Of a stretch of DNA of 42,696 nt, positions 1,648-42,696 are shown one piece after another (position 1 is the first letter of the stretch; each line of letters starts with the position of its first letter). The notes beneath the pieces were generated by a model that had not been told where the DNA came from, made no database searches, and saw nothing but the letters and a program-made list of their open reading frames with translations. Origin of the DNA: a virus; the IMG/VR virus record IMGVR_UViG_3300032278_000024, positions 1 through 42,696 of that record; one strand, 5' to 3'. The translations under genes were made by a program, and so were the position numbers.

Positions 1648-4029
1648 TTAAGCATTTGCTTCTAGTGCAGTTACCTTTGCACTAAGTTCTTGAACCGCCT
1701 TGATTAGAGGTAATACAAAATCACTATAACCAAGCATTTGTTGACCATTCTCATCCTCACTCCATCCAGTAAAATAATCACTTGCTCCAGCTGCAGCTAC
1801 AGCATCTTTAACTTCCTGAGCAATCATCCCATGCCTCTTCTTAACAGTATCCATGTCTGCATACGTTCGCTTCACCAACTCACCATCATCATCAAGCTCA
1901 TCCTCGAAATCTCCCCACTCTTCAGGGTACGCTTCTGCTGGCTTGAACCTAAAGGTAGTGGTTCGTAGGGCATCAATAAAACTCAACCCTAAGTCACAGT
2001 CCTGTATGTCTGTCTTCTTTCGTATGTCTGAAGACTGGCTCCAAGTTCCAGAACTAGTAAAATCAAGAGTTGCAACATTACTAGATCTACCAATGACACA
2101 TCTGTCTGTAGCAGCGGTTATACTTTTACCAAGTGCTACACCATAATTGCCACTAGCATCAGCATATGAGCCAATGCAGATATTATAGTAGCCTCCATAT
2201 ATCGAGCGTCCTGAGTCCTTTCCGAGTACTACATTTACATAACCAGATGAAAGAAATGGTAAGTTTTGCGTCCCTATCACTACATTATTATCACCACTTA
2301 CTGTTCCATTATTGCCTGTTGTTGCAGCAGCTAAAGCATTCGTCCCTATAGCTACATTATTGTTAGCATCATTCAGCGTAGCATGAAGAGCCTCGTAACC
2401 TATTGCAACATTCCCAGTACTACCAGATTCATACCCAGACAGAGCCCTTGTACCTAGTCTTATAGTCTCTTCAGGGCCCATGGTGATAGGACCACTAGGG
2501 ATTCTAATTTCTCCATCTCCCATCACTATTAGAAGGTCGGCACTATTGTTGTGATTGGTAACCTTAAAACTTTGATTGCTTGTACTATTACCTGCTTGCA
2601 CCCACAATCCATAACCACCAGTAGTGTGGTTATTATGAATAACAGCCCCCCACGAAGTAGTAGTATTTTTCACCTCTAAACCATAATTTACATAGTTCTG
2701 TTCAATGTACATCCCTGTACCACCAGTAGAATTGAACAGTTCAAATGCTCTACCTGAACCTGTATGAGCAATGTGTATTGCAGGTTGAGTTCCAGCCTCT
2801 TTTACAACCAGCCTCCCTTCTGTTGGTGTAGAATCGTTTATGCCGACATTGCCAGTATTTGTGATTACCATCCTCTCATCCCATGTGATATTAGTACCTA
2901 CAGAAGCTGAACCCACCGTGTGGAAAATGTGTTTTCCAGCGTACTGTTGATATAGGGTGGCTTCGTCCTCATATACTCGTACCCAATTTCCTGATGTATT
3001 GAGGTATGCATTCTGAAGTATAAGCAACATTTTACTTGCCCCAACAGCGGTATCACATGCTAAGAACCCAGTGTTCCCCAAAGTAAGACTCCTTTTATCG
3101 GCATGAGTTGCTAAAGGGGATGCTCCGATGCCGACATTACCAGAGGAATTAATTGTCATCCTAGTATCAGTATGACCTATTGATGGGCTTGTTTTAAAAT
3201 GCAAACTACCGACAGAATTTCCTGCTGTCCTTTCAAATGTTATTGCACCTCCTGCCTTATCATCAGCATCTTGATCAGTAGAAATCCTAAATCCAATACC
3301 TAATTCTTCGTTATCATCATTTGCAGGATTACTGATAAATAATGCATATTTATCTTGATCACAATCATCCTGTGCATCTGAAGTAGTCCTGACTGATACG
3401 TTGGCATAAGGGGAAGTATCCCCGATGCCGACTTTGCCATCGGCTGAAATAGTTATTCTTTCGGAATTATTTGAAATTATATCAAAACGAGTATTTGAAA
3501 TCGTTCCTACATTTGCAGCAGTATCGTATGATTGCATCCCAACAATATGATTATTTGTAGAATCTTTTATTCGTAATTGTGGAGATGATGCACCAACGAT
3601 TTCAAGAATAGAACTGGGAGAAGCAGTCCCGATGCCGACTTTACCATCCGAATGAATTACCATCCTTTGAGTTAACGTAGAACCAGATTCGTTAGTAGAT
3701 GGCCTTGACCAGAATGTAATATTCCCGGGTTCATCGTAATAATATGCCTGCCCAGAATTTGATTGATTATTGAATTTAATTGCTGCTGAAATGGTAGTAC
3801 CGTGAGTTTTAGCATCATACTCTATCGACTTATAATTATTAGCAGATGCTGGGCTATTCATCCGTATATCACCCTGATACACATGAAGCAACTGTTTGGG
3901 ATCTGTTGTCCCTATGCCGACTCTATCGTTAGCTGTATCTATTGAAAGAGTAGGTGAGTCCACCTCCAAATCAGCAAGTAACCCTATAATCCCGGAGCGT
4001 GCTCCGCTAGTTCCGATTATTCCTGACAT
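1648..4029 (-). CDS. Tail fiber/spike with C-terminal S74 intramolecular chaperone
   Basis: The 793-residue protein begins MSGIIGTSGARSGIIG, a start often seen in environmental phage fibers. It carries repeated beta-type units with the signature VGIGT-S/D-P (around residues 49-55, 130-136 and 295-302) and Gly/Asn-rich repeats near NNVAIGTNAL. The C-terminal 127 residues form a peptidase S74 intramolecular chaperone: SDIRKK supplies the Ser667-Lys672 dyad, followed by GMIAQEV and a terminal helix (LIKAVQEL). S74 domains help fold trimeric beta-helical fibers and then cut themselves off just before the Ser. It is the last and largest fiber gene and is likely the receptor-binding part. GGAG lies six bases before the ATG. 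Confidence 0.93.
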   Translation of the reverse strand: MSGIIGTSGARSGIIGLLADLEVDSPTLSIDTANDRVGIGTTDPKQLLHVYQGDIRMNSPASANNYKSIEYDAKTHGTTISAAIKFNNQSNSGQAYYYDEPGNITFWSRPSTNESGSTLTQRMVIHSDGKVGIGTASPSSILEIVGASSPQLRIKDSTNNHIVGMQSYDTAANVGTISNTRFDIISNNSERITISADGKVGIGDTSPYANVSVRTTSDAQDDCDQDKYALFISNPANDDNEELGIGFRISTDQDADDKAGGAITFERTAGNSVGSLHFKTSPSIGHTDTRMTINSSGNVGIGASPLATHADKRSLTLGNTGFLACDTAVGASKMLLILQNAYLNTSGNWVRVYEDEATLYQQYAGKHIFHTVGSASVGTNITWDERMVITNTGNVGINDSTPTEGRLVVKEAGTQPAIHIAHTGSGRAFELFNSTGGTGMYIEQNYVNYGLEVKNTTTSWGAVIHNNHTTGGYGLWVQAGNSTSNQSFKVTNHNNSADLLIVMGDGEIRIPSGPITMGPEETIRLGTRALSGYESGSTGNVAIGYEALHATLNDANNNVAIGTNALAAATTGNNGTVSGDNNVVIGTQNLPFLSSGYVNVVLGKDSGRSIYGGYYNICIGSYADASGNYGVALGKSITAATDRCVIGRSSNVATLDFTSSGTWSQSSDIRKKTDIQDCDLGLSFIDALRTTTFRFKPAEAYPEEWGDFEDELDDDGELVKRTYADMDTVKKRHGMIAQEVKDAVAAAGASDYFTGWSEDENGQQMLGYSDFVLPLIKAVQELSAKVTALEANA

Positions 4030-18077: not shown

Positions 18078-18361
18078 TAAACCTGACCTCCTATGTAATA
18101 CCAAGCGCTACTTTGGTATACCTCTAGTCTACCAGTTGTAGTATTATAAATCATTCTACCATTAATTGCAGAGAGTGCATCCCGCTCCGTAGTAGTGTAA
18201 TGTGGTATGCTAAAAGATTCTATGTAATTCTCTAAGTCTTTGAGTCGCTCATCGTAGCGATCTGTGATACGTACCATCTCATAGTATAACTCATCACTTG
18301 AGTACGCACTCCGGTTAGGTAGTGTTCTGGCTTTGTTTACGTCAAGATTTTGTACGGTCAT
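18077..18361 (-). CDS. Small virion protein with fiber-like C-terminal motif
   Basis: The 94-residue protein has a helical N-terminal part (YYEMVRITDRYDERLKDLEN) and a C-terminal YTTTERDALSAINGRMIYN followed by TGRLEVYQSSAWYYIGG. The latter pattern is common at the ends of phage fiber and head-fiber modules. It overlaps the S74 fiber gene by 20 bases upstream and the nozzle gene by one base downstream. It probably accompanies that fiber on the virion; exact function is unknown. Confidence 0.75.
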   Translation of the reverse strand: MTVQNLDVNKARTLPNRSAYSSDELYYEMVRITDRYDERLKDLENYIESFSIPHYTTTERDALSAINGRMIYNTTTGRLEVYQSSAWYYIGGQV

Positions 18362-19970
18362 CTAACTCTTGAACTGCTTTAATAAGTGTGAATACTAAGT
18401 ATTGGATGTCTAAGTTTCGTAAATCCCTACCATCATTTTGTGGTACGTACCCAACAGCTTGTGGTAAAATATCTTCAAGCTCTTGCGCTATTATCCCAAA
18501 GGTATCCCTAGTGAGATCCTTCTTCCAGTTAAACTTACGCACCTTCATGAGAGCAATCTTAGTTAGAGAAGATTCAGTATAGTCTTCAATGTTCGTCTTT
18601 AACCGCTCATCAGAAAAGCTAGGATAGATGCCAAAGTTGGTCACCCATGCTTCCCCAGTAGAGGGGTCATTCCCACCAGGGTTTGTGCCTAAGCTATTCT
18701 GGAACCAAAGGTAGTCAGATGGGGAACCTGTATTGTTAGATGTATGATTTATTGATATTATATTAGAGGCTATGTAACTAGTATTAGCGGTATTAAAATT
18801 TGACTGGGTACCATACCCACTAACACTGTTTACTGCACCAATATTAAGGCAAGAAGCTGCTCCACCTCCAGCACCGGTACCACCATCCGCAACAGCAACA
18901 TCAGTACCACCAGAACGGTAGACTGTAGAATCAATAGCGACAGTAAGTGTCTTAACTCCACCATCAGCAGTGTTGCTACCAGATGTGTCGATCCCTGTCC
19001 CACCTGCTATTTTAAGTACTTGGCTAGCTGCGTTAATAGCCATATTATCTCCACTATCACCTTTCAGATCAAGGTCGTTAAGAGCATCCTGGTCATCAAC
19101 GTATTGCTTGATACTTGCCTGTGTGGCTAGGTGAGCGGTGGAGTCTGAGTCCATATCATCTTCATTCAACACCAACCCGTTACCAGTTATAGAGGCAGCA
19201 GCCAAAACTCCGTATATAGTAAGTTCATCAGTCGCCTGGTCACTACCTAACTGAGTGTTACCATTGATTGTAAGATTACCTAGAGCAGTTATGTGACTTA
19301 AAGTTGTAATGTTACCATCAACACCAAGGTTACCCTCTATGTCACAATTACCATCTGTGCCAGGTATACTCTTACTTGGACCTACAGCGAGTCTAGTTGT
19401 TATAACCTTCGTGCATCTTTCCCTGCTACCAATATCCATGTTGTCCAACTTTCCTGTACCGCTATCAGCTATCTCAAGGTTGGCATGGTTAGAGATGATA
19501 GGATTGTCAAGGGTCTTGCTTACAAGAGTTTGCGTATGGTCCAGAGTTACTACAGTATGCCTAGAATTACCAAAGTCAGCAGCAGCAGAGCCTTGAAAGT
19601 GTAGCTCAGTTGTTTTGTTAGCTGCACCACTACTATCTTTACCAGTTACTCCCAGCCAAAGTTCACCGAATGTAATATTGCTACCCAAAGGGGGAGGAGA
19701 GCCACCCGCATTAAGAATACCTAGACCAGTTGTAGGAGTGTAATCTAGATTGAGTTCTTTGAGTGTAACTCTACGATGGAACCCTGTATCTTCATTCGCA
19801 GCCATACCAGCTAGTGTACCAGCACTAGGTTCCCCAGTGCCACCAACCATGTGGTCTCTGTTCATCCGCTCGCGGATAGCTTCCTTAGTCTCTCTAATAC
19901 GAAGAGCACCCTCTAATACATCATCTGTGTTTGCTGGGCTAGTTTCTAGCCACGGAACGCTATTAGCCAT
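18342..19970 (-). CDS. Second fiber with C-terminal S74 chaperone, between adaptor and nozzle genes
   Basis: The 542-residue protein starts MANSVPWLETSPANTDDVLEGALRIRETKEAI, a segment seen at the N-terminus of several phage fibers. It continues with beta-rich shaft repeats (NLTINGNTQLGS, ITGNGLVLNED, GGTGAGG) and ends in a short S74 intramolecular chaperone of about 90 residues: SDERLK gives the Ser453-Lys458 dyad, followed by FGIIAQELEDILP and LIKAVQEL. It is the second S74 fiber in the genome. Its place between adaptor and nozzle suggests a head, collar or upper-tail appendage, though gene order does not prove location. AGGT lies shortly before the ATG. Confidence 0.9.
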   Translation of the reverse strand: MANSVPWLETSPANTDDVLEGALRIRETKEAIRERMNRDHMVGGTGEPSAGTLAGMAANEDTGFHRRVTLKELNLDYTPTTGLGILNAGGSPPPLGSNITFGELWLGVTGKDSSGAANKTTELHFQGSAAADFGNSRHTVVTLDHTQTLVSKTLDNPIISNHANLEIADSGTGKLDNMDIGSRERCTKVITTRLAVGPSKSIPGTDGNCDIEGNLGVDGNITTLSHITALGNLTINGNTQLGSDQATDELTIYGVLAAASITGNGLVLNEDDMDSDSTAHLATQASIKQYVDDQDALNDLDLKGDSGDNMAINAASQVLKIAGGTGIDTSGSNTADGGVKTLTVAIDSTVYRSGGTDVAVADGGTGAGGGAASCLNIGAVNSVSGYGTQSNFNTANTSYIASNIISINHTSNNTGSPSDYLWFQNSLGTNPGGNDPSTGEAWVTNFGIYPSFSDERLKTNIEDYTESSLTKIALMKVRKFNWKKDLTRDTFGIIAQELEDILPQAVGYVPQNDGRDLRNLDIQYLVFTLIKAVQELDDRTKS

Positions 19971-23069: not shown

Positions 23070-23349
23070 AATACTCACTCGTCAGTTCGACTGGGTTAGG
23101 GTTTCTATCGTTTGCATATTTGATCGCATCTAGTAGCTTACGCTTGGACGTACAATGGACGCCCTCCCGGTTACCAGGTTCGATCTGATAATTGCCCTCA
23201 TAGAAGAGGACAGGCTTTCCGAGTTTAAACCATACTATCGTGGTTGGACCTTCGCAGATATTACACTTGACGTCGAGTCTATCTTCGTAGGTCACAGTAT
23301 CCTCGAAAACTGTGTCACAGGCTTCACACCTGAAATCGTAGCTAGGCAC
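23062..23349 (-). CDS. FmdB-type zinc-ribbon protein
   Basis: The 95-residue protein begins MPSYDFRCEACDTVFED and has a second Cys pair in KCNICEG, so C8, C11, C29 and C32 form a CxxC-x17-CxxC ribbon. The MPxYxFxCxxC start is the hallmark of the FmdB family of small regulatory zinc ribbons, which phages often carry in the packaging/head block. Its role there is unknown; the C-terminal half (REGVHCTSKRKLLDAIKYA) may contact nucleic acid. It overlaps both neighbours by 8 bases. Confidence 0.82.
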   Translation of the reverse strand: MPSYDFRCEACDTVFEDTVTYEDRLDVKCNICEGPTTIVWFKLGKPVLFYEGNYQIEPGNREGVHCTSKRKLLDAIKYANDRNPNPVELTSEYYG

Positions 23350-23623
23350 CTCTTAGTCTCTTTGTTGCTGTTGAAGTATATTGCTTTGATTGTTGCACAC
23401 TATGCTCTCGTGTCTTTCTAGCCTTGCGTTCCCTATACAACTTAGGATAGTACTTTTTGAGATACCGTAGTGCACCACTCTCTTCCTCAAACGTGCCAGG
23501 ACCGAAATGATCAGATGGTGCTTTAGGTACTGTAGCTTTACTTGGGTCCACTGATAGGCTTTGATGCCTACGAAGGAACTCAGCTACTCTGTCGCTACGC
23601 TTACGCTTTTTTTGGTCTGCCAC
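23342..23623 (-). CDS. Small basic protein, unknown
   Basis: The 93-residue protein is strongly basic, with Lys/Arg clusters at both ends (DQKKRKRSDR and RERKARKTREHS) and a helical middle (SGALRYLKKYYPKLYRE). It overlaps its neighbours by 8 and 23 bases. Together with the next two upstream genes it forms a group of short, basic, probably nucleic-acid-binding proteins between portal and scaffold. No family is recognised. Confidence 0.7.
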   Translation of the reverse strand: MADQKKRKRSDRVAEFLRRHQSLSVDPSKATVPKAPSDHFGPGTFEEESGALRYLKKYYPKLYRERKARKTREHSVQQSKQYTSTATKRLRGA

Positions 23624-23924
23624 GTTGCTTTGGTGCTGATTTAGTTTCTATAGGTTCAGGCTTCTGGGCAACTGGAGGTTCGGCAACCGAGGGCTGCTTC
23701 AAAACTGCAAGGGGTTCTCTCACAAAGCACCATCCGTTTGTCTGATACTTTGGGAAGACAGTATCCGAGGCAGCACCTGACTTATAGTGCGCCCAAGAAT
23801 CGTACTTTTGACCTTGGGGATCATCTGGTAGCCCATGGGTGGTTGCAAACTTAGCATACCACGCTGGGAAACCCTTCTTGTCCTCATCGGTCCAGGTGTT
23901 TATTTTAACTCTATGTCTACTCAT
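23601..23924 (-). CDS. Small protein with C-terminal AT-hook-like motif
   Basis: The 107-residue protein has an aromatic-rich N-terminal part (WTDEDKKGFPAWYAKF) followed by a Pro/Lys-rich tail that ends KQRGRPKKA. RGRPKK is the core of the AT-hook, a minor-groove DNA-binding motif. It may bind DNA during packaging or in the virion, but no phage family is recognised. It overlaps the previous gene by 4 bases (ATGA-type) and the next by 23. Confidence 0.7.
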   Translation of the reverse strand: MSRHRVKINTWTDEDKKGFPAWYAKFATTHGLPDDPQGQKYDSWAHYKSGAASDTVFPKYQTNGWCFVREPLAVLKQPSVAEPPVAQKPEPIETKSAPKQRGRPKKA

Positions 23925-24139
23925 TTTGGTCCTTTCAAGTAAGGTGCCTTCTTAGATACTTGCTGCCCCTGCAAAGACTGCTTCGGTCTAGTCTGTACTT
24001 CCTTAACAGGTGTTTCACTCTTAGTGAGCTTTCTACCCTTCTTGAGCTGTGGGTGCGTACCCTTCTTAACTTGTGTCGTTTGAGATGCTCTCTTACCTAA
24101 TTTGCTAAATAAAGCAAACAAGCGTACTAATCCACTCAT
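23921..24139 (-). CDS. Small very basic protein, unknown
   Basis: The 72-residue protein begins with a short hydrophobic stretch (SGLVRLFALFSKLG) and continues as a disordered Lys/Gln-rich tail (KKGTHPQLKKGRKL, KQSLQGQQVSKKAPYLKGPK). The high positive charge suggests DNA or RNA contact. It shares ATGA-type overlaps with both neighbours, which supports coupled translation. No known domain is seen. Confidence 0.65.
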   Translation of the reverse strand: MSGLVRLFALFSKLGKRASQTTQVKKGTHPQLKKGRKLTKSETPVKEVQTRPKQSLQGQQVSKKAPYLKGPK

Positions 24140-24289: not shown

Positions 24290-25954
24290 CTATGCTGCCT
24301 TTTGAATCTGTTGTCCTAGTTGGGATACAGACATTGGGTTCTGTTGAGTTCCCGGTGCTCCTGGTGCCTGCTCCTGTAACATATCATCGAATTGTACTCC
24401 TACTTGGTTGTCAAGTAGATACTTAGTTAGTTTGACATTATCTACCAGTGGGTTTTGGGCTAGAATCTGGTATGTACGGATGGAACGTTCCTCCCGAACC
24501 TTGCGAGTCTCTGCTACGGAAGAGTCTGGATCTACTTTGATAAAGAACCTGTAGCCTGCTAACTCTCGTCCTACGAACTTAACCCACACAGGTAGCTGGT
24601 CTGGACCTACCACCTGAATAACCTGCTCTTCACTCCAGTGTCTGTATATTACTTCGTGCATAAGACGTACCATGCTGGTGTGTGCATCCGCTATAACGTC
24701 TCTACGTTCGTCCTCACGTATGCTAGCAGCCTCACGGATAGCTTGGACTTCGGTGGCTGTACGGTCTGCTGAACCTTCACCAAATGAACCTGCTTCGTTC
24801 CTACTAAGCCCCATGATTTCACGAATATCGGTCATTATCCTATCTTCAGCCTTGAGTAGACTGTCGGGTATTGGTGCTACCTCAATATTCTTGATCCCGT
24901 TCATGTTAAGCACTCTAACCAACCCAGGTCCACTCTCATCCAGTAGTTTTGCAGCCTCTTCCTCGTTGATTGCACCCTTCTCTACTATGAACTTAACGAT
25001 ACTAAGACGGCGATGTTGCATCATCTGAGTCTTGATCTCATTAATCTCACGCTGGAAAGGCTCTAGTATCTTAATGTCCGGTACTCCCCAGAAGCACTCG
25101 TTATCCGGGTTGAAGACCATAGGGAAGTACGGCACCCCATTATCCATCTGGAGTTCGTCATCCTCATAGTAGAGGATCTTGTCCGTTAGACTAGGACAAA
25201 TGACGAAGACCTTCCCTGTTCGCTTATCCCGCACTTCCCACAGGTCAACTATGTTACGAGGATTAGTTGTGATAACCTCGTAAAGACCCATAGTGTCTTT
25301 GTTACGAACCGCTTGATCTGCAATATCCTTGGTATTACTGAAGCGAGTGTCTGCCACTACATCATCTGTGAATCTCGTGATCTTCTCGGCTGTAAAGTAT
25401 GCACTATCAAACCGATCTGTGCCGAACGGCACCACGAAGTTACCCGTATCCACAGTACGATACCAGGGCATATTGTCCATCACGTTCTCGCCCCACTCTA
25501 CTTTGTCACCTCCTTTTGTAGTGGGTGCGTCTGTCCCCATAGGTTCGGGTGTGGGAGTGTACTGAGCACCAAAGCCAAACTTACCTATGCCAGTTCCGTG
25601 GAAGAAAGCATTCTGAACCTGACGCTTACTCTCGTGCTTGACGCCCATATGAGTCATCATTTGGTTACTCACTCGTTCCATAACCTTAGCTACTGCGGCA
25701 GCCTCTGGACCAGGCTTCTTCGGTGTTATGCTGATACCTGGATTCCTGAAGTATATCCTCGGGGTAAGCATCCGAAGCATCATAAACACAATATTCTTAG
25801 GAAGCACATTACGAGTATCGTAGTCACCACGATAGTATGCTTGCCACAGCTTCCAGTCGTCCTCGTTAGCCCACTGCTTGCGGTAGGTTTCACCAGCTTT
25901 TATCTGGTCTTCCCACCACGCTACTTCGGGTTTGGTGCCTTTGTAACCTTCCAT
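24290..25954 (-). CDS. Portal protein
   Basis: The 554-residue protein has the usual portal layout: a helical N-terminus (WWEDQIKAGETYRKQW), LPKNIVFMMLRMLTPRIYF, a central wing region, then the stem-region helices FQREINEIKTQMMQHRRL. These are followed by IREIMGLSRNEAGSFGEG and ADRTATEVQAIREAASIRED, which resemble the crown-side helices of podovirus portals. It forms the dodecameric DNA channel at one capsid vertex and works with the terminase encoded two genes upstream. The start overlaps the PurD-like gene by 34 bases. Confidence 0.9.
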   Translation of the reverse strand: MEGYKGTKPEVAWWEDQIKAGETYRKQWANEDDWKLWQAYYRGDYDTRNVLPKNIVFMMLRMLTPRIYFRNPGISITPKKPGPEAAAVAKVMERVSNQMMTHMGVKHESKRQVQNAFFHGTGIGKFGFGAQYTPTPEPMGTDAPTTKGGDKVEWGENVMDNMPWYRTVDTGNFVVPFGTDRFDSAYFTAEKITRFTDDVVADTRFSNTKDIADQAVRNKDTMGLYEVITTNPRNIVDLWEVRDKRTGKVFVICPSLTDKILYYEDDELQMDNGVPYFPMVFNPDNECFWGVPDIKILEPFQREINEIKTQMMQHRRLSIVKFIVEKGAINEEEAAKLLDESGPGLVRVLNMNGIKNIEVAPIPDSLLKAEDRIMTDIREIMGLSRNEAGSFGEGSADRTATEVQAIREAASIREDERRDVIADAHTSMVRLMHEVIYRHWSEEQVIQVVGPDQLPVWVKFVGRELAGYRFFIKVDPDSSVAETRKVREERSIRTYQILAQNPLVDNVKLTKYLLDNQVGVQFDDMLQEQAPGAPGTQQNPMSVSQLGQQIQKAA

Positions 25955-26973
25955 TTATCTAATATGCTATCTAGCTCTGTGTATTTGGTTTTGGAATACT
26001 TGGTAACAAGATCTGCTCGGTAGCAGATGTTCTCGATGTTAAGATTGGCAACAGTTCTGCTTGCTCTGGCAAAGGCGTCTTTAACTTGCTCCCCTCTTGC
26101 AGTGACTTTAAGGATAGGGCCGAACTTCTGAGAACAATAATGGACTCCTCGCTTGATGAGGACATTACTAAGTCCGCAATGCTTAAGGTTGGCATCCACC
26201 AATCCATATATTCTGTAGTCTGTGGTAGTAGGCCATCCAATGTGTTGTAGTCTAATTGCGACATAGTATCCTGGTATCAGATTGAGATCGGAGCGAGTGC
26301 CACCTGCGAGTTCAAGCAGAATATCCATAGGCGGTTCCTGTACGCCTTCCAGCATTGCTTCAGTATTATCAAACGAGAACCCTGCATAGATATCTGTGAT
26401 ACTTGTGCCATCAAAGTCTAATCTTACCGGACCTCGGTAAGAGTTCTTTTCAAATAGTGGCTTTAGCTTACGGAATCCCTCGAATATGGTTGGAGGTACG
26501 TCCTCCAACGTCTTGCATACTGTGACCATTGCACCCAAACTGGGCCCGACTGTATCCGAGATAAGTTCCTTGTGGTACTTGATAAGGAGGAATGGAGTAC
26601 ACCACTTGCGCCCATTCCACCACGCTTCCACACTATACTCGGATTTAGTATCACTGATGCTAATTTCAGTAAGCTCCAGTAGGCTCCTACGATTACCACG
26701 ACTCCTGTTAGCAAGGGTAAACAAACGACTAAGGCCAAGAGTCCTAGTGGGCGCGTCCTCGAACCTGACTTCTTTATACCCGAATATAGGGTCATCTGCT
26801 AATACGAGATCACTACGGTTAACGTAAGGTTTCCAAGCACTAACTCTTTCATACAGTCCATCCCCAGTATCTGAATAGTCGTTATGTATAAATACTCTGA
26901 CTTCGTGACCTTCCTGGGACAGTCGAGTCGCCAGTGCTAGGCCGATGCCAGTACTCAAAAAGAGTACTTTCAT
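25921..26973 (-). CDS. Degenerate PurD (GAR synthetase)/ATP-grasp-like protein in the packaging block
   Basis: The 350-residue protein follows the PurD fold over much of its length. MKVLFLSTGIGLALATRLS is like the N-domain start of phosphoribosylamine-glycine ligase. SVEAWWNG (114-121), PFLLIKYHKELISDTVGPSL (127-146) and GAM match the second half of the ATP-grasp domain. KVTARG (289-294) to CYRAD (317-321) match the C-domain. The enzyme is usually about 420-430 residues; here the segment with the ATP-binding KADGLAAGKG-type loop is missing, and the metal-binding EFNxRFGDPE region reads DIYAGFSFDNTE. Catalysis is therefore doubtful. It sits between large terminase and portal with a good GAGGGAG site, so a role in packaging, nucleotide sensing or DNA modification is possible. 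The PurD relation is my reading by eye. Confidence 0.7.
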   Translation of the reverse strand: MKVLFLSTGIGLALATRLSQEGHEVRVFIHNDYSDTGDGLYERVSAWKPYVNRSDLVLADDPIFGYKEVRFEDAPTRTLGLSRLFTLANRSRGNRRSLLELTEISISDTKSEYSVEAWWNGRKWCTPFLLIKYHKELISDTVGPSLGAMVTVCKTLEDVPPTIFEGFRKLKPLFEKNSYRGPVRLDFDGTSITDIYAGFSFDNTEAMLEGVQEPPMDILLELAGGTRSDLNLIPGYYVAIRLQHIGWPTTTDYRIYGLVDANLKHCGLSNVLIKRGVHYCSQKFGPILKVTARGEQVKDAFARASRTVANLNIENICYRADLVTKYSKTKYTELDSILDKWKVTKAPNPK

Positions 26974-26987
26974 GCTCCCTCGGGGAA

Positions 26988-28577
26988 CTAGGACAATAAG
27001 TTATGTGCTATCGGATACCTGGGTTGCCTGTGCTTGGCTAGTATTGCACCGAATGTAAAGTCTGCTTCAGGATTGATTACCACAGGTATGTCAACATCGT
27101 ATGCTAACTGTGTTGCTTGCCGCAGCAGTACTTCGTTAGCCAAGGCTGTAGCTATAACGGAGTCATCATGACACCCGTCCCGTGCTTCAAGCCTGGTGTT
27201 AACATCACTTGTGTTCTTCTCGATAAAGCTAGACAACTCACCACGGAGGTACGTAGAAACTACGGTTAGACCAGATGCCAGAGCCCGTCGCAGGTTTCCT
27301 ATGATTAGCGGCTTGGAACGCCTAGTAGTCTGCGTACCTCTGTCGTAAGTCGTTTGGCTAAATCTATCATCACGGTAGATACAGTTGATTGGATACTCTT
27401 CAATAAGCTGGTATAAGGTGAGTATGCCGTGATTGTTAGTTTCGATATTGATGAGTGCTTGGTTATAGAGTCCTCCAATCCAACTAAGAACTCTTGCGAA
27501 CTCGTCTGGGGAAATGTTATTATTAACGTACTCCCCGACTTGTCTAAAATCCTCAAGCGAAAAGATTTCAACGACAGAGCTATCACCTCCAACTCCTCCA
27601 CCGACATCAACTCCAATACCGTAGTGGTTGTGGGGCCGAGGGTGCTCTGTATCATAGCAGAGGTACTGACTTTCGGGATGCTCTTGCCACCTGTCACCAA
27701 TGTCTTCGTAGCTGACTCTATGAAAGAAACTTTGCCCACGGGTCTGAAAGCACTCTTCTAAGGTTAGCGGATACTCTTGACGAAAGAGGCCGAGATCGCC
27801 ATCCATCTCATCAATCTTACGTCTACGCCAAGACATCTGCCCTGGAGTGAGCCCATAATCTGTGAGTACCTGCTCTTCTTCATACTCTCGATCTAGGTTA
27901 TATGTCTCTTCTTGGGACCACTCATCTTGGTACTCTGGGAAGTTCTTCCAAGACAGGAAGTGTAGACTATACTCGTTACGAGGATTGAGAGCTGCAATGG
28001 CTCTCCTGTGATACCAGGTTTCTGCACCATTTCCTGTAGACTCAAATACGATCATCGAGTTTTCTTGAGGTACTGACTGTAGTAGGGCAGCAGTTAGCGA
28101 TTTTGGGTCAGGCCAGAAAGCTACTTCCGAGCAAAGTAGTCTGTTAATCGTACCCGAACGGCCCGCAGTTTTAGTACCAGCTGTCTCCACGTAGAAAGTG
28201 GAGTTTGTTGCGACAAAGCGGATTTCTCTTTTGGTGCTTGTTTCGGTTTCGATCTTGCCACTTTGGAAGTGGTTGAGGAAGAAGTGGACCCTTTGGAAGA
28301 GTCTTTCCGTACTGTCTGAGTCATGAGCAATTACTACACAGCGGAGATTCTCGTATGCTAAGCAGTCCAGAAAGAAGCACGCTAGGAATAGCGAGGAGAT
28401 CCCTTCTTGTCTAGGCTTAGGTATAATATCACGCCCCGTCAGTTCACCGAGAATCTCTTGCTGTGCATGGTTAAGGTTAAATGGTACTGTGATCCCTGCT
28501 TTATTACTAATCTTGAGGAACTTCTCTATAGCTGTCTTGTGGGAAGCCCCGTAGTTATCTGTTAGCCACTTAGACAT
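26988..28577 (-). CDS. terL: Large terminase subunit (packaging ATPase and nuclease)
   Basis: The protein has the terminase order of motifs: a Walker A-like loop KPRQEGISS (about residues 54-62), Walker B with catalytic Glu in LLCSEVAFW, and the coupling motif FESTGNG. The RNase H-type nuclease follows, with GVDVGGGVGGDSS, INIETNNHG and HDDSVIATALA supplying the acidic triad. It pumps DNA through the portal and cuts concatemers. The ATG at 28577 (MSKWLTDNYG) is used; a TTG at 28592 with GGAAGAAG upstream is an alternative that would add five residues. A short frame just upstream overlaps the ATG by 8 bases. Confidence 0.95.
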   Translation of the reverse strand: MSKWLTDNYGASHKTAIEKFLKISNKAGITVPFNLNHAQQEILGELTGRDIIPKPRQEGISSLFLACFFLDCLAYENLRCVVIAHDSDSTERLFQRVHFFLNHFQSGKIETETSTKREIRFVATNSTFYVETAGTKTAGRSGTINRLLCSEVAFWPDPKSLTAALLQSVPQENSMIVFESTGNGAETWYHRRAIAALNPRNEYSLHFLSWKNFPEYQDEWSQEETYNLDREYEEEQVLTDYGLTPGQMSWRRRKIDEMDGDLGLFRQEYPLTLEECFQTRGQSFFHRVSYEDIGDRWQEHPESQYLCYDTEHPRPHNHYGIGVDVGGGVGGDSSVVEIFSLEDFRQVGEYVNNNISPDEFARVLSWIGGLYNQALINIETNNHGILTLYQLIEEYPINCIYRDDRFSQTTYDRGTQTTRRSKPLIIGNLRRALASGLTVVSTYLRGELSSFIEKNTSDVNTRLEARDGCHDDSVIATALANEVLLRQATQLAYDVDIPVVINPEADFTFGAILAKHRQPRYPIAHNLLS

Positions 28578-28686
28578 AGTGGGAGAGCCCAATCAACACT
28601 TCTTCCGCACCATAACCTTCATCGGGTTCGACCCCTCCGGTATGTGATATAAAAAAAGCTCGTCCGTTGTTCAAGAAATCTCCCAC
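28570..28686 (-). CDS. Possible 38-residue protein between the two terminase genes
   Basis: This frame fills the only gap between the 109-residue gene and large terminase. It starts with GTG at 28686 (GDFLNNGRAFFISHTGGVEP) and ends GLSHYV at 28570, overlapping the terL ATG by 8 bases, as many neighbours do. The composition looks protein-like, but there is no clear ribosome-binding site. It could instead be an untranslated spacer. Confidence 0.35.
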   Translation of the reverse strand: MGDFLNNGRAFFISHTGGVEPDEGYGAEEVLIGLSHYV

Positions 28687-29021: not shown

Positions 29022-29498
29022 CTAGTTATTCAGTTGTACATTCTCTGCTTGGATCAGTATCTGCCTTACTTCAGCCTCTGCTGACCCAGTACGTTCTCTG
29101 TGTTCCCAACCGGCACCCTTGAACCACATACCAGCGGCTCGCAAGCGTAGGTCAGGATTGCCATCGTCACGCAATGCATCTTTCAAAGCCGATACAGCAC
29201 TTGGAGCCAACTCCATGAAGTCAGTATAGTACCGCTCCATAGCAGAGACAATGACATCCCTAGCAGCCTCACTCTGTAGTACATTTACTACAGTCTGTCC
29301 TGCGCAACCTAGACGCTTTGCAATATCCTTATTTTTGAAGCCCGCCAAATGTAGGCTTACAATCTCAAGGTGCTTAGGCCGCAGCTTTGATATAGAAGCT
29401 GGAACCAGAGCAGACTGCTTTTGCTCTAGTAGCAACCCGTCCAGAGTCCCGTTAGGAAATCTTAGCTCGGAGCTGCTTGTACTTTGCAAGGATGGCAT
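29022..29498 (-). CDS. terS: Small terminase subunit
   Basis: The 158-residue protein holds a helix-turn-helix: PKHLEIVSLHLAGFKNKDI then AKRLGCAGQTVVNVLQ (about residues 41-75), the DNA-recognition fold of many small terminases. A helical oligomerisation region follows (SAVSALKDALRDDGNPDLRL) and a terminal amphipathic helix. It would bind the packaging site and load large terminase. It is the second gene of the leftward operon. The start ATG at 29498 lies inside a 28-codon frame that begins with an ATGA overlap, so coupled re-initiation is possible. Confidence 0.82.
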   Translation of the reverse strand: MPSLQSTSSSELRFPNGTLDGLLLEQKQSALVPASISKLRPKHLEIVSLHLAGFKNKDIAKRLGCAGQTVVNVLQSEAARDVIVSAMERYYTDFMELAPSAVSALKDALRDDGNPDLRLRAAGMWFKGAGWEHRERTGSAEAEVRQILIQAENVQLNN

Positions 29499-39100: not shown

Positions 39101-41547
39101 CTTGGGGTAATCCTAAAGCAAAGCTAATCCTAATAGTAGATCGCCCAGCTAGCAGAGCATACACAGACGGTAGTATTATATCAGGACGAGGTGGGCAGAA
39201 CCTCCACCTCATCTTGTCTCACGCTGGACTATCATCCCAAGACGTCTACATACTATGTGTCAATCCAAGGGATGCACCTGAGAATACCATAATGAATACA
39301 AAGGGAGTGCTTACGGAGACTGGCTTGCAGTTACAGGCCAACCTCCGTAGTACTCTAGTCAAGCTGGAGCCTATGATGGTGGTCCCTATGGGCCGTGTGA
39401 GCTGTACCCTCTTGCTAGAAGATCACAGGCTGGACAAACTCCGAGGCTCATGCTTTCAGTACAATGGGTTCAAGGTGATACCTACTAGGAACCCATTCAC
39501 CTCTGGGTTCAATCCACCTGACCGTTACATTATCTCCGCTGACATACAGAAAGCTAAGGCTAATTGTGATCCCTCCCCCTACATCCCTCCTGACCTCAAC
39601 ATAATAGTAGATCCAGCATACTCAGTAGCCGAACGCTACCTTCAGGATGCCGAGCTAGTCAGTTGTGACATAGAGGTCGCAGGTGGGCAAGTATTCTGTA
39701 TAGGATTCTCCAAGGATGCTGACTCAGCGCTCGTCATCAACCTAGACAACCGCCCTATGTCAGACCGCATAGCTATGTGGAAACTCTGTGCTATGTTTCT
39801 TGATGATCCTACCAAGACAGTAGTGGGCCAGAACTTTATCTACGATATGAATATGCTCTGGCGACTCGACAAGCTACGAGTCTCCGCCAAAATACATGAC
39901 ACTATGATAGCACACCACATCATGTATCCTGAATTCGAGAAGTCCTTACAATTTCTGACCTCCATGTACACAACCATACCATACTACAAGGATGAGGGTG
40001 GGTTCTGGAAGAAAGGCATAGGTGACCGCAGGAGCTTCCTTTACTATAATGGCAAGGATTGTATAGCTACGTACAGGGTCTGGGAAAAACTGAAGGATAA
40101 GATCCTCAGTGAGAAGTTCATCTCCCAGTACCAAGAGACTATTGATATGTACGAACCACTCATCTACCTGATGTACCGAGGGATAGATGTGGATATGACT
40201 GAGTTGGAAGTAGTCAAGCAGAAGCTCAAGGATGAGATAGCATCTATCGACTCTTCCTTGCAGGGTGTAGTCCAGCAAGAGTCTAACCACGAGTGCATGG
40301 AGATCAACTACAACTCTCCCAAGCAGTGCATTGAGTACTACTACGGGGTAATGGGACTACCTCCCTATCGGAAAGCTGGCAAGCCTACTGTAGATGACAA
40401 AGCTCTCGCTCAGCTTGCTAAAGCTACCTCCGCTCGCAAGGGTTTATACTCTGCCCAGCTTATCCAACAGCTCAGGCACCGCAACAAACTCTTTAGCACA
40501 TACCTAGATATAGAGTTCGACAAAGATCAACGCTTCAGGTCGGAGTACCGTCCCAGAGGCACACGTACTGGCAGGCTATCCTCCGGTAAGACTTTCTGGG
40601 GCAGTGGTATGAACGCTCAGAACGTACCGCCCGAGATGAAAGCCTTTCTGGTCGCGGACCCTGGACACCTCCTGCTGGAGATGGACAAACGACAATCTGA
40701 GTGGGTAATCACAGCTTACCTAGCTAACGACTCCGAGATGATAGCTATCATCAATACTGGAGTTGACCCACACTCCGCTACTGCACACATGGTAACAGGC
40801 ATCCCACTTGAAGCCATTGCATCAGAGAACAAAGCTATAGGTCACACTACCAACCCCGAAGAGATCGAGCGGATACGAGATGACCTAGTAGTAGACTCCC
40901 TATCCGCACCGTTTAATCTAATAGCCGAGGGACACTTTGTACCACGTACCCTCAGTGTCCGCCAGATGGGCAAGAAGTGTAACCACGCTTTGAACTACAT
41001 GATGGGGGCACGGCAGTTTAGCTTAGAGACTGGGATGGCAGAGCCAGAGTGTGTAGAGGCTCGGAATAAGTACCTTGCAGGGTACAGCAAGTTGCCTGAC
41101 TGGTGGGCTGGTGTACGTAAGACACTACATAATGATCGGGGACTCCGTAACATCTGCAACCAGTACCGTGGTTTCATTGGTGTTGTCGATGATGCTTTGC
41201 TCAAGGATGCCGTAGCGCACCTGCCCCAATCAGTCTCTGCATGGATGGTAAACATGGCAATGAATGAGATTTATCGTAGCACTCAACACGAGGTTGCTGC
41301 GGGAGAGATGCTAGCCAACGTACATGATAGTATCCTTTTCCAGTACCCTTATGAAAAGATAGATCAGTTAGCTCGCTTTTGTACCATAGTGAAGCATTCT
41401 ATGGAACCTGAACTAACGGCACCCTCTGGTCTCCACTTCCGAGTAGAGACTGACATTAAGATAGGATTTAGTTGGGGACATATGGTCGAAACAACATTTC
41501 AAGACGTAGGAGATGCAGCATGGAAGTTGCGAGAGGCAAAAGGATAG
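39097..41547 (+). CDS. Family A DNA polymerase with N-terminal uracil-glycosylase-like domain
   Basis: The 816-residue protein has three parts. Residues about 5-150 resemble family 4 uracil-DNA glycosylases (GRGGQNLHLILSHAGL, DVYILCVNPRDAPEN, EPMMVVPMG), but the GExPG and HPS catalytic motifs read DRPAS and RNPFT. The 3'-5' exonuclease follows with D191/E193, N246-D250 and Y317-D321. The polymerase has motif A D530-Q533-E535, motif B R622-K626-Y634 and motif C H743-D744. In motif B, His630 lies where E. coli Pol I has Phe762, and motif C reads HDS rather than HDE. It replicates the phage genome. The ATG overlaps the previous stop (ATGA). Confidence 0.93.
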   Translation: MTWGNPKAKLILIVDRPASRAYTDGSIISGRGGQNLHLILSHAGLSSQDVYILCVNPRDAPENTIMNTKGVLTETGLQLQANLRSTLVKLEPMMVVPMGRVSCTLLLEDHRLDKLRGSCFQYNGFKVIPTRNPFTSGFNPPDRYIISADIQKAKANCDPSPYIPPDLNIIVDPAYSVAERYLQDAELVSCDIEVAGGQVFCIGFSKDADSALVINLDNRPMSDRIAMWKLCAMFLDDPTKTVVGQNFIYDMNMLWRLDKLRVSAKIHDTMIAHHIMYPEFEKSLQFLTSMYTTIPYYKDEGGFWKKGIGDRRSFLYYNGKDCIATYRVWEKLKDKILSEKFISQYQETIDMYEPLIYLMYRGIDVDMTELEVVKQKLKDEIASIDSSLQGVVQQESNHECMEINYNSPKQCIEYYYGVMGLPPYRKAGKPTVDDKALAQLAKATSARKGLYSAQLIQQLRHRNKLFSTYLDIEFDKDQRFRSEYRPRGTRTGRLSSGKTFWGSGMNAQNVPPEMKAFLVADPGHLLLEMDKRQSEWVITAYLANDSEMIAIINTGVDPHSATAHMVTGIPLEAIASENKAIGHTTNPEEIERIRDDLVVDSLSAPFNLIAEGHFVPRTLSVRQMGKKCNHALNYMMGARQFSLETGMAEPECVEARNKYLAGYSKLPDWWAGVRKTLHNDRGLRNICNQYRGFIGVVDDALLKDAVAHLPQSVSAWMVNMAMNEIYRSTQHEVAAGEMLANVHDSILFQYPYEKIDQLARFCTIVKHSMEPELTAPSGLHFRVETDIKIGFSWGHMVETTFQDVGDAAWKLREAKG

Positions 41548-41717
41548 GATGGTTGACTATACTAGAGTATAGCCATACAGATATTTACAGTCGCAAGTTT
41601 TGGAAGTGCGATTGTAGATGTGGGTCGCAGACTATAGTGCGTGAGTCCGATCTCAAGCGTGGTCACACTCGAAGCTGTGGCTGCATGAGAGGCTGGAATA
41701 ATGCCAAGAAAAGTTAA
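41520..41717 (+). CDS. Stand-alone zinc-binding module, like the N-terminal part of HNH/AP2 homing endonucleases
   Basis: The ATG at 41520 (MEVARGKRIGWLTILEY) has AGGAG seven bases upstream; a longer TTG frame lies in the polymerase gene and is rejected. The 65-residue product has KCDCRCGS, then LKRGHTRSCGCMRG. GKRxGxLTxLE and the LKxGxTxSCGC ending are typical of the zinc module that precedes HNH or AP2 domains in phage homing endonucleases, but neither domain follows. It overlaps polymerase by 28 bases and the next gene by 17. It could be a remnant or a small DNA-binding protein. Confidence 0.75.
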   Translation: MEVARGKRIGWLTILEYSHTDIYSRKFWKCDCRCGSQTIVRESDLKRGHTRSCGCMRGWNNAKKS

Positions 41718-42696
41718 AGGCAACTGGATCTCCGCATACCTACAGTACACAGAAGAAACAGAGAGTCCAAAGTCTTATCACACATGGACAGCTATAAGTA
41801 TAATAGCTGGTGTACTCGGTCGTAAGGTACACTTCACTCTGGGTTCGCAAAAGATATACCCTAACTTCTACATTCTGTTAGTAGGACAGAGTGGTAAGTT
41901 GAGAAAGGGTGTAGCTATGGGTATGGGGGAGGATCTGTTTAGGCAGACTGGACTGGATATAGCTGCCGAGGCTATCACTAGGGAGGCTCTGCTCATACGG
42001 ATGGGGAAAGCTAAGAAGAACTTCCTCTATCCAGACAGTTCTCAAGGGACTCACAGTAGCCTGACCCTGTTCTCCAAAGAGCTTACCACACTTACCGGAG
42101 TACGTCAGGTCAAGTTCCTAGCTGACCTCACTGACTGGTTCGACTGTCATGATATATGGGTAAACGATACCAAGAACAAAGGCATAGATATAATTGAGGG
42201 TATGTTCCTCAATATACTTGCTGCCACCGCACCTGACTGGATACCTCAGATACTGCCATTGGAGGCAGTAGGCGGTGGCTTCACCTCCCGATGTATCTTT
42301 GTAGTAGAGTCCCAAAAGTACAGGAGCATCGCTATGCCTCCACCACCGGATGCTAAGACCCGCCTAGCACTCATCGAGGATCTTAAAGATATGCGTGGCA
42401 TCACGGGAGAGTATCAGTTCACCCCCGAAGGACTCGTTGCATTTAAAGCATGGTATGATAGGACCGAAGCAGAGGCTAAGACAGGCAAGTACGCAGTGCC
42501 CGACCCTCGCTTAGCATCATACTGTGAACGCAGGGCAGTCCACTTGCTCAAGCTAAGCATCATCTTACAAGCTGCCCAGGATGCTAACAGAATGGTAGGG
42601 CAAGAGACTTTTGAGCTAGCTATCGAGACACTAGAAGACATCGAACCCAGGATGTCAGAGGTATTCGGTGGCGTAGGTATGAGCGAACTGGCGCAA
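41701..42696 (+). CDS. DUF3987-like primase/helicase ATPase, 3' end cut by window edge
   Basis: An ATG at 41701 (MPRKVKGNWISAYLQYTEE) opens a frame that is still open at the window end (332 codons). The start ESPKSYHTWTAISIIAGVLG and the P-loop region FYILLVGQSGKLRKGVAM, followed by SKELTTL and FLADLTDWFD, fit the DUF3987 type of phage helicase or primase-associated ATPases. The P-loop is atypical (GQSGKLRKG instead of GxxGxGKS/T), a form seen in this group. It most likely unwinds or primes DNA for the polymerase just upstream. Confidence 0.8.
   Translation, partial: MPRKVKGNWISAYLQYTEETESPKSYHTWTAISIIAGVLGRKVHFTLGSQKIYPNFYILLVGQSGKLRKGVAMGMGEDLFRQTGLDIAAEAITREALLIRMGKAKKNFLYPDSSQGTHSSLTLFSKELTTLTGVRQVKFLADLTDWFDCHDIWVNDTKNKGIDIIEGMFLNILAATAPDWIPQILPLEAVGGGFTSRCIFVVESQKYRSIAMPPPPDAKTRLALIEDLKDMRGITGEYQFTPEGLVAFKAWYDRTEAEAKTGKYAVPDPRLASYCERRAVHLLKLSIILQAAQDANRMVGQETFELAIETLEDIEPRMSEVFGGVGMSELAQ

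Follow-up and report, generated by a model that had tools for sequence, protein, structure and literature searches.

A predicted PurD-fold protein lacking the ATP-grasp lid is encoded between the terminase and portal genes of environmental phages

What is a relative of the purine enzyme PurD (phosphoribosylamine-glycine ligase, GARS) doing between the terminase and portal genes of a phage, and could it still act as an enzyme? The question is raised by an open reading frame on the minus strand of the window, by which we mean the whole 42,696-nucleotide stretch of viral DNA analysed here. This frame (25921–26973) begins with ATG and runs uncut for 350 residues in the window's ORF listing. It sits between the gene for the large terminase subunit, terL (26988–28592, minus strand; phrog_2, 9.8e-28), and the portal gene (24290–25954, minus strand; phrog_156, 3.3e-15), as an earlier note on this DNA had placed it. 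A further conserved ORF upstream of terL (29022–29498, minus strand), recognized by synteny, is a probable small terminase gene by position only. The 3' end of the PurD-like gene overlaps the portal start by 34 nt (25921–25954, minus strand), and overlaps of 34–67 nt are found in all relatives examined. Small basic ORFs lie just after the portal gene (23342–24139, minus strand). Elsewhere in the window, two tail-fibre-like proteins are encoded on the minus strand, at 18342–19970, with matches to several tail-fibre PHROGs, and at 1648–4029; an S74-type intramolecular chaperone is apparent by eye at the C-terminus of both. On the plus strand, a small cysteine-rich ORF (41472–41717) overlaps the DNA polymerase gene at that gene's end, and it resembles the zinc-ribbon portion of homing endonucleases.

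Single-sequence tools miss the PurD resemblance because the Pfam GARS_C match stays below threshold (18.6 bits against a cut-off of 34.8) and the phmmer match is faint (E=0.13). Among PHROG profiles there is no significant family for this protein or for the full-length relatives described below. Profiles of the clade to which it belongs, termed lid-less here, are more informative. A 13-sequence clade profile searched against the PDB with hmmsearch recovered Aquifex aeolicus PurD (A. aeolicus, 2yw2) at E=1.1e-6 over residues 119–325, with four more PurDs below it. A profile of full-length phage PurD-like proteins matches 2yw2 at 2.9e-11 and every lid-less sequence scanned at E 7e-8 to 2e-11, and hhalign joins the lid-less and full-length phage groups via residues 1–82 (prob 97.4, E=1.2e-11). 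The AF2 model of the window protein, built from a 54-row alignment that includes full-length PurD-like homologues, has a pLDDT of 86.8 and a pTM of 0.86. The structural match to PurD anticipated earlier was recovered from it, the best 15 Foldseek matches in the PDB all being PurD/GARS (E 2.2e-17 to 2e-14, TM 0.68–0.71); a BFVD search gave weak ATP-grasp matches only. The fold match depends in part on the homology, because full-length PurD-like rows were in the alignment and the lid-less clade alone gave a model with a pLDDT of 42.9. Since a good model needed the full-length homologues, the profile matches serve as independent support. Taken from profiles and model, the window protein has the PurD superfamily fold. 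It is distant from the enzyme, with ~15% identity to cellular PurD and 13.9 bits in the TIGR00877 equivalog model (cut-off 288), in which the full-length phage relatives score 77–112 and Salmonella PurD 627.

Like PurD/GARS (2yw2, 1gso, 2xcl; GARS_N/A/C, TIGR00877), the window protein has an N-domain, a B-lobe and a C-domain of the same fold and in the same order, and the motifs GPxxGxM and YRxD are common to both. The N-terminal Rossmann-like domain (residues 1–107; 26653–26973, minus strand) was delimited by hhalign to the full-length phage family and by pattern scan, and carries a phage-family signature, G[LI]xxR[VI]xxWx6[AS]D[LI][VI]xx[DT]D. An earlier reading that the N-domain begins like PurD holds for the fold and fails for the motifs: GREH, PGNAGT and GPEAPL, the substrate (phosphoribosylamine-binding) motifs of PurD, were found by alignment neither in the lid-less clade nor in the full-length phage relatives. 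The next segment is missing. Alignments to Salmonella PurD and to full-length phage relatives place the deletion point at 26635–26652 (minus strand), where ~69 residues, PurD 125–193, are absent; this is the ATP-grasp A-lobe, or lid, which holds the Lys/Gly ATP-binding loops, whose loss had been suspected. The deletion covers most of the ATP-binding stretch of PurD, which we take from UniProt to be 135–196. The remaining ATP-grasp B-lobe (residues 113–225; 26299–26637, minus strand), with WWNGRKW and GPxLGxM, is placed by the PDB profile match and alignments. The C-terminal GARS_C-like domain (residues 236–326, ending in YRAD; 25996–26268, minus strand) is placed by the PDB profile match and by Pfam GARS_C (E=0.0024, below cut-off). 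The stretches from SVEAWWNG to VGPSLGAM and from KVTARG to CYRAD, singled out earlier, are indeed present and align with PurD. The former metal site (residues 193–205, TDIYAGFSFDNTE; 26359–26397, minus strand) occupies the place of PurD EFNCRFGDPE, and its alteration is confirmed: in alignment with Salmonella PurD it reads D-I-Y-A-G-F-S-F-D-N. Two PurD residues there, Glu286 and Asn288, are the metal (Mg) ligands, with numbering and role as in UniProt. The first is Asp in the window protein, and the second is Tyr in the window and His or Arg in its lid-less relatives. The window protein therefore differs from PurD/GARS in lacking residues 125–193, the Mg ligands and the three substrate motifs, and in being encoded in the packaging block.

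Fifteen other IMG/VR contigs carry the lid-less gene in intact form, at 55–81% identity. A DNA-pattern scan for DDPxFGY, run separately, returned those 15 contigs and no others, and a portal-based scan returned 17, namely the same 15 and two whose sequence ends at the portal gene or just upstream of it. The order terL, PurD-like gene, portal holds in all lid-less relatives found. The gene is under strong purifying selection, with dN/dS of 0.06–0.09 compared with 0.05–0.06 for terL and 0.04 for the capsid gene. WNGRKWCTP and ADDPxFGY are closely conserved stretches in the clade, and the B-lobe remnants GPxLGxM and the His of DHKR persist in the alignment. A profile search with the lid-less form found none in bacterial genome contigs. 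Scanning all reading frames of the window and of the loci of its relatives with the full-length profile turned up no A-lobe, and neither of the two longest records contains a further member of the family. In six relatives (L004, L005, L007, L010, L011 and L013), one or two K/R-rich basic ORFs of 70–200 aa lie between terL and the PurD-like gene. The ORFs in this gap were considered as a separate source of the missing lobe and rejected, being K/R-rich basic proteins and not an A-lobe.

A larger phage family surrounds this clade. A Manatee Spring metagenome phage (MW202796) encodes a 443-aa PurD-like protein at 42140–43471 (L016:8001–9332). Over its first 64 residues this protein matches that of the window, and it passes Pfam GARS_A (31.7 bits, cut-off 27); the gene is unannotated in the GenBank record. 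Searching IMG/VR with this protein gave 49 more loci, and a DNA-pattern scan with the N-domain signature matched at least 120 stretches. After duplicates were removed and the earlier loci added, at least 100 ORFs of at least 330 aa fell into nine clusters, all of whose representatives are PurD-like. The family thus spans more than 100 IMG/VR contigs and several prophages (the MW202796 gene; L016, L022–L070, L081–L193; Paraburkholderia prophages L195/L196). In INPHARED, MW202796 was the sole family member seen; Acinetobacter and Salmonella "phage" purD matches there are genuine purD beside purH, on contigs deposited as phage or prophage. Bacterial genome contigs yielded eight full-length-family loci, including two Paraburkholderia isolates. 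Each of these two genomes has a genuine purD of the host as well, whose product shares ~29% identity with the prophage protein and is intact in GREH, PGNGGT, KADGLAAGKG and EFNCRMGDP.

The full-length members share with the window protein the N-domain signature, the B-lobe, the C-domain, a place in the late virion block and the lack of substrate motifs. They differ in retaining the A-lobe, with the ATP Lys (KPxGDxxDK) and LQEFxxGxE, as well as Glu286, while Asn288 is replaced by Thr and RFGDPE mostly by RPGWP. They pass the GARS_A cut-off, and one passes that of GARS_C too. Their position also differs: they follow a very large virion protein (about 1000–1700 aa) and precede a lysozyme or glucosaminidase, in a block that also includes a head-closure gene and, in many cases, one for a GNAT acetyltransferase. 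In one Paraburkholderia prophage, the part of the virion block upstream of the full-length member encodes an Asp/Asn beta-hydroxylase (L195:534–1576; PF05118, 1.9e-15) together with a GNAT acetyltransferase, which suggests protein modification in virion assembly. Because the full-length cousins occupy another place in the late operon, adjacency to terL and portal is not a family rule. By position, both groups are late, virion-associated genes, in different places of the block. In a tree, the lid-less, full-length and cellular groups separate, and the tree does not resolve which full-length lineage lost the lid. As far as sequence comparison goes, the window gene belongs to a divergent lid-less clade of the larger phage PurD-like family. 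That family, read from its sequences, is not one of purine enzymes, because the substrate motifs are lost, the genes lie in a late virion or lysis position, and a genuine host purD coexists in the two Paraburkholderia genomes.

We give about even odds (roughly 0.5) to the reading that the lid-less product is a non-catalytic binding protein of PurD fold, expressed as a late gene in step with the portal, that takes part in virion assembly or packaging. One lineage of a phage-specific PurD-like ATP-grasp family would have lost the A-lobe, the metal ligands and the phosphoribosylamine-binding motifs. With these gone from sequence and model, no ATP-dependent ligation would be expected, and the clade is very probably catalytically dead. 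Because the part that grips ATP is lost, the protein is probably a recycled, non-catalytic fold. Strong purifying selection would have retained it as a putative binding protein of the late operon, and the overlap of the two reading frames probably links its translation to that of the portal. It would most likely serve assembly or packaging through binding and not catalysis; the candidate partners are a component of the portal, terminase or capsid, or else a small molecule bound in the former cleft between B-lobe and N-domain. The earlier proposal that a purine-enzyme fold was recruited is supported by the late, packaging-block location and by retention in every relative; its packaging part is drawn only from position and the portal overlap, and where a gene lies says little about what it does. 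The same proposal had named DNA modification, which, like other ATP-driven chemistry, is weakened by the loss of the ATP-binding lobe and metal ligands.

It is unlikely that the lid-less protein is still an enzyme, with a lid supplied in trans by host PurD, a phage protein or a homo-oligomer, or with new chemistry at the cleft between B-lobe and N-domain. The strength of purifying selection would suit an enzyme, some B-lobe residues are kept (GPxLGxM and the His of DHKR), and WNGRKWCTP and ADDPxFGY could form a new active site; however, both the Lys/Gly loops and the metal ligands are lost, and neither the window nor the relatives hold a gene for the lobe. Rather more doubtful is a role against the host, in which the protein would bind one of its enzymes (PurD or another purine enzyme, for example) as an inhibitor or decoy and so redirect nucleotide pools in infection. 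Such an interaction is plausible for a dead paralogue, and two hosts of the full-length cousins retain their own purD, but expression with late virion genes fits an early metabolic takeover poorly, and the protein has only ~15% identity with cellular PurD. Equally doubtful is a sensor that would gate packaging or the assembly of the portal in response to a small ligand, be it a nucleotide, a sugar phosphate or an amino acid. The Rossmann-like N-domain is kept together with its family-specific acidic motif, yet the standard ATP-grasp nucleotide pocket requires the missing lobe, and nucleotide sensing through that usual pocket, as suggested earlier, is unlikely with the lobe and ligands gone. 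A purD that was split by a frameshift, the earlier note's alternative, can be set aside, and so can an artefact of assembly. Only the absent segment would speak for either, whereas no reading frame of the window or of the relatives' loci encodes the missing lobe, and the 15 other contigs carry the lid-less gene uninterrupted with dN/dS <0.1.

Phage ATP-grasp proteins with proposed protein-modifying roles have been described before, in the R2K-clade peptide ligases (PMC4431377, PMC7824862). By their description, these belong to another ATP-grasp clade and are active ligases, not lid-less. Closer in name are viral genes annotated as phosphoribosylamine-glycine ligase. They were reported as auxiliary metabolic genes in virome surveys (PMC11360552, PMC11097641), and a global ocean survey found that viral copies outnumber cellular ones (PMC11360552). 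These "purD/GART" genes were read as purine synthesis (PMC11360552, PMC11097641, PMC12043954), which is where our account of the phage family differs. Annotation pipelines could call full-length members purD because these pass the GARS_A cut-off though the substrate motifs are absent. Some of the reported viral purD/GART genes may belong to the phage PurD-like family.

A broader scenario falls somewhat short of an even chance. Phages may have captured a PurD-type ATP-grasp family for a virion-related function, one lineage dropping the entire ATP lobe to become a non-catalytic assembly factor co-translated with the portal. Some of the "viral purD" signal in viromes would then reflect virion biology and not purine metabolism. 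Since Paraburkholderia prophages carry full-length members beside genuine host purD, bench work is possible. In the lid-less clade, a fold known from purine synthesis has become a conserved product of the late genes of environmental phages, and nature has cleanly deleted its ATP-grasp lid. The wider family is a large group of phage proteins that routine annotation can take for enzymes of purine synthesis, and it offers a testable reinterpretation of counts of virus-encoded purD/GART.
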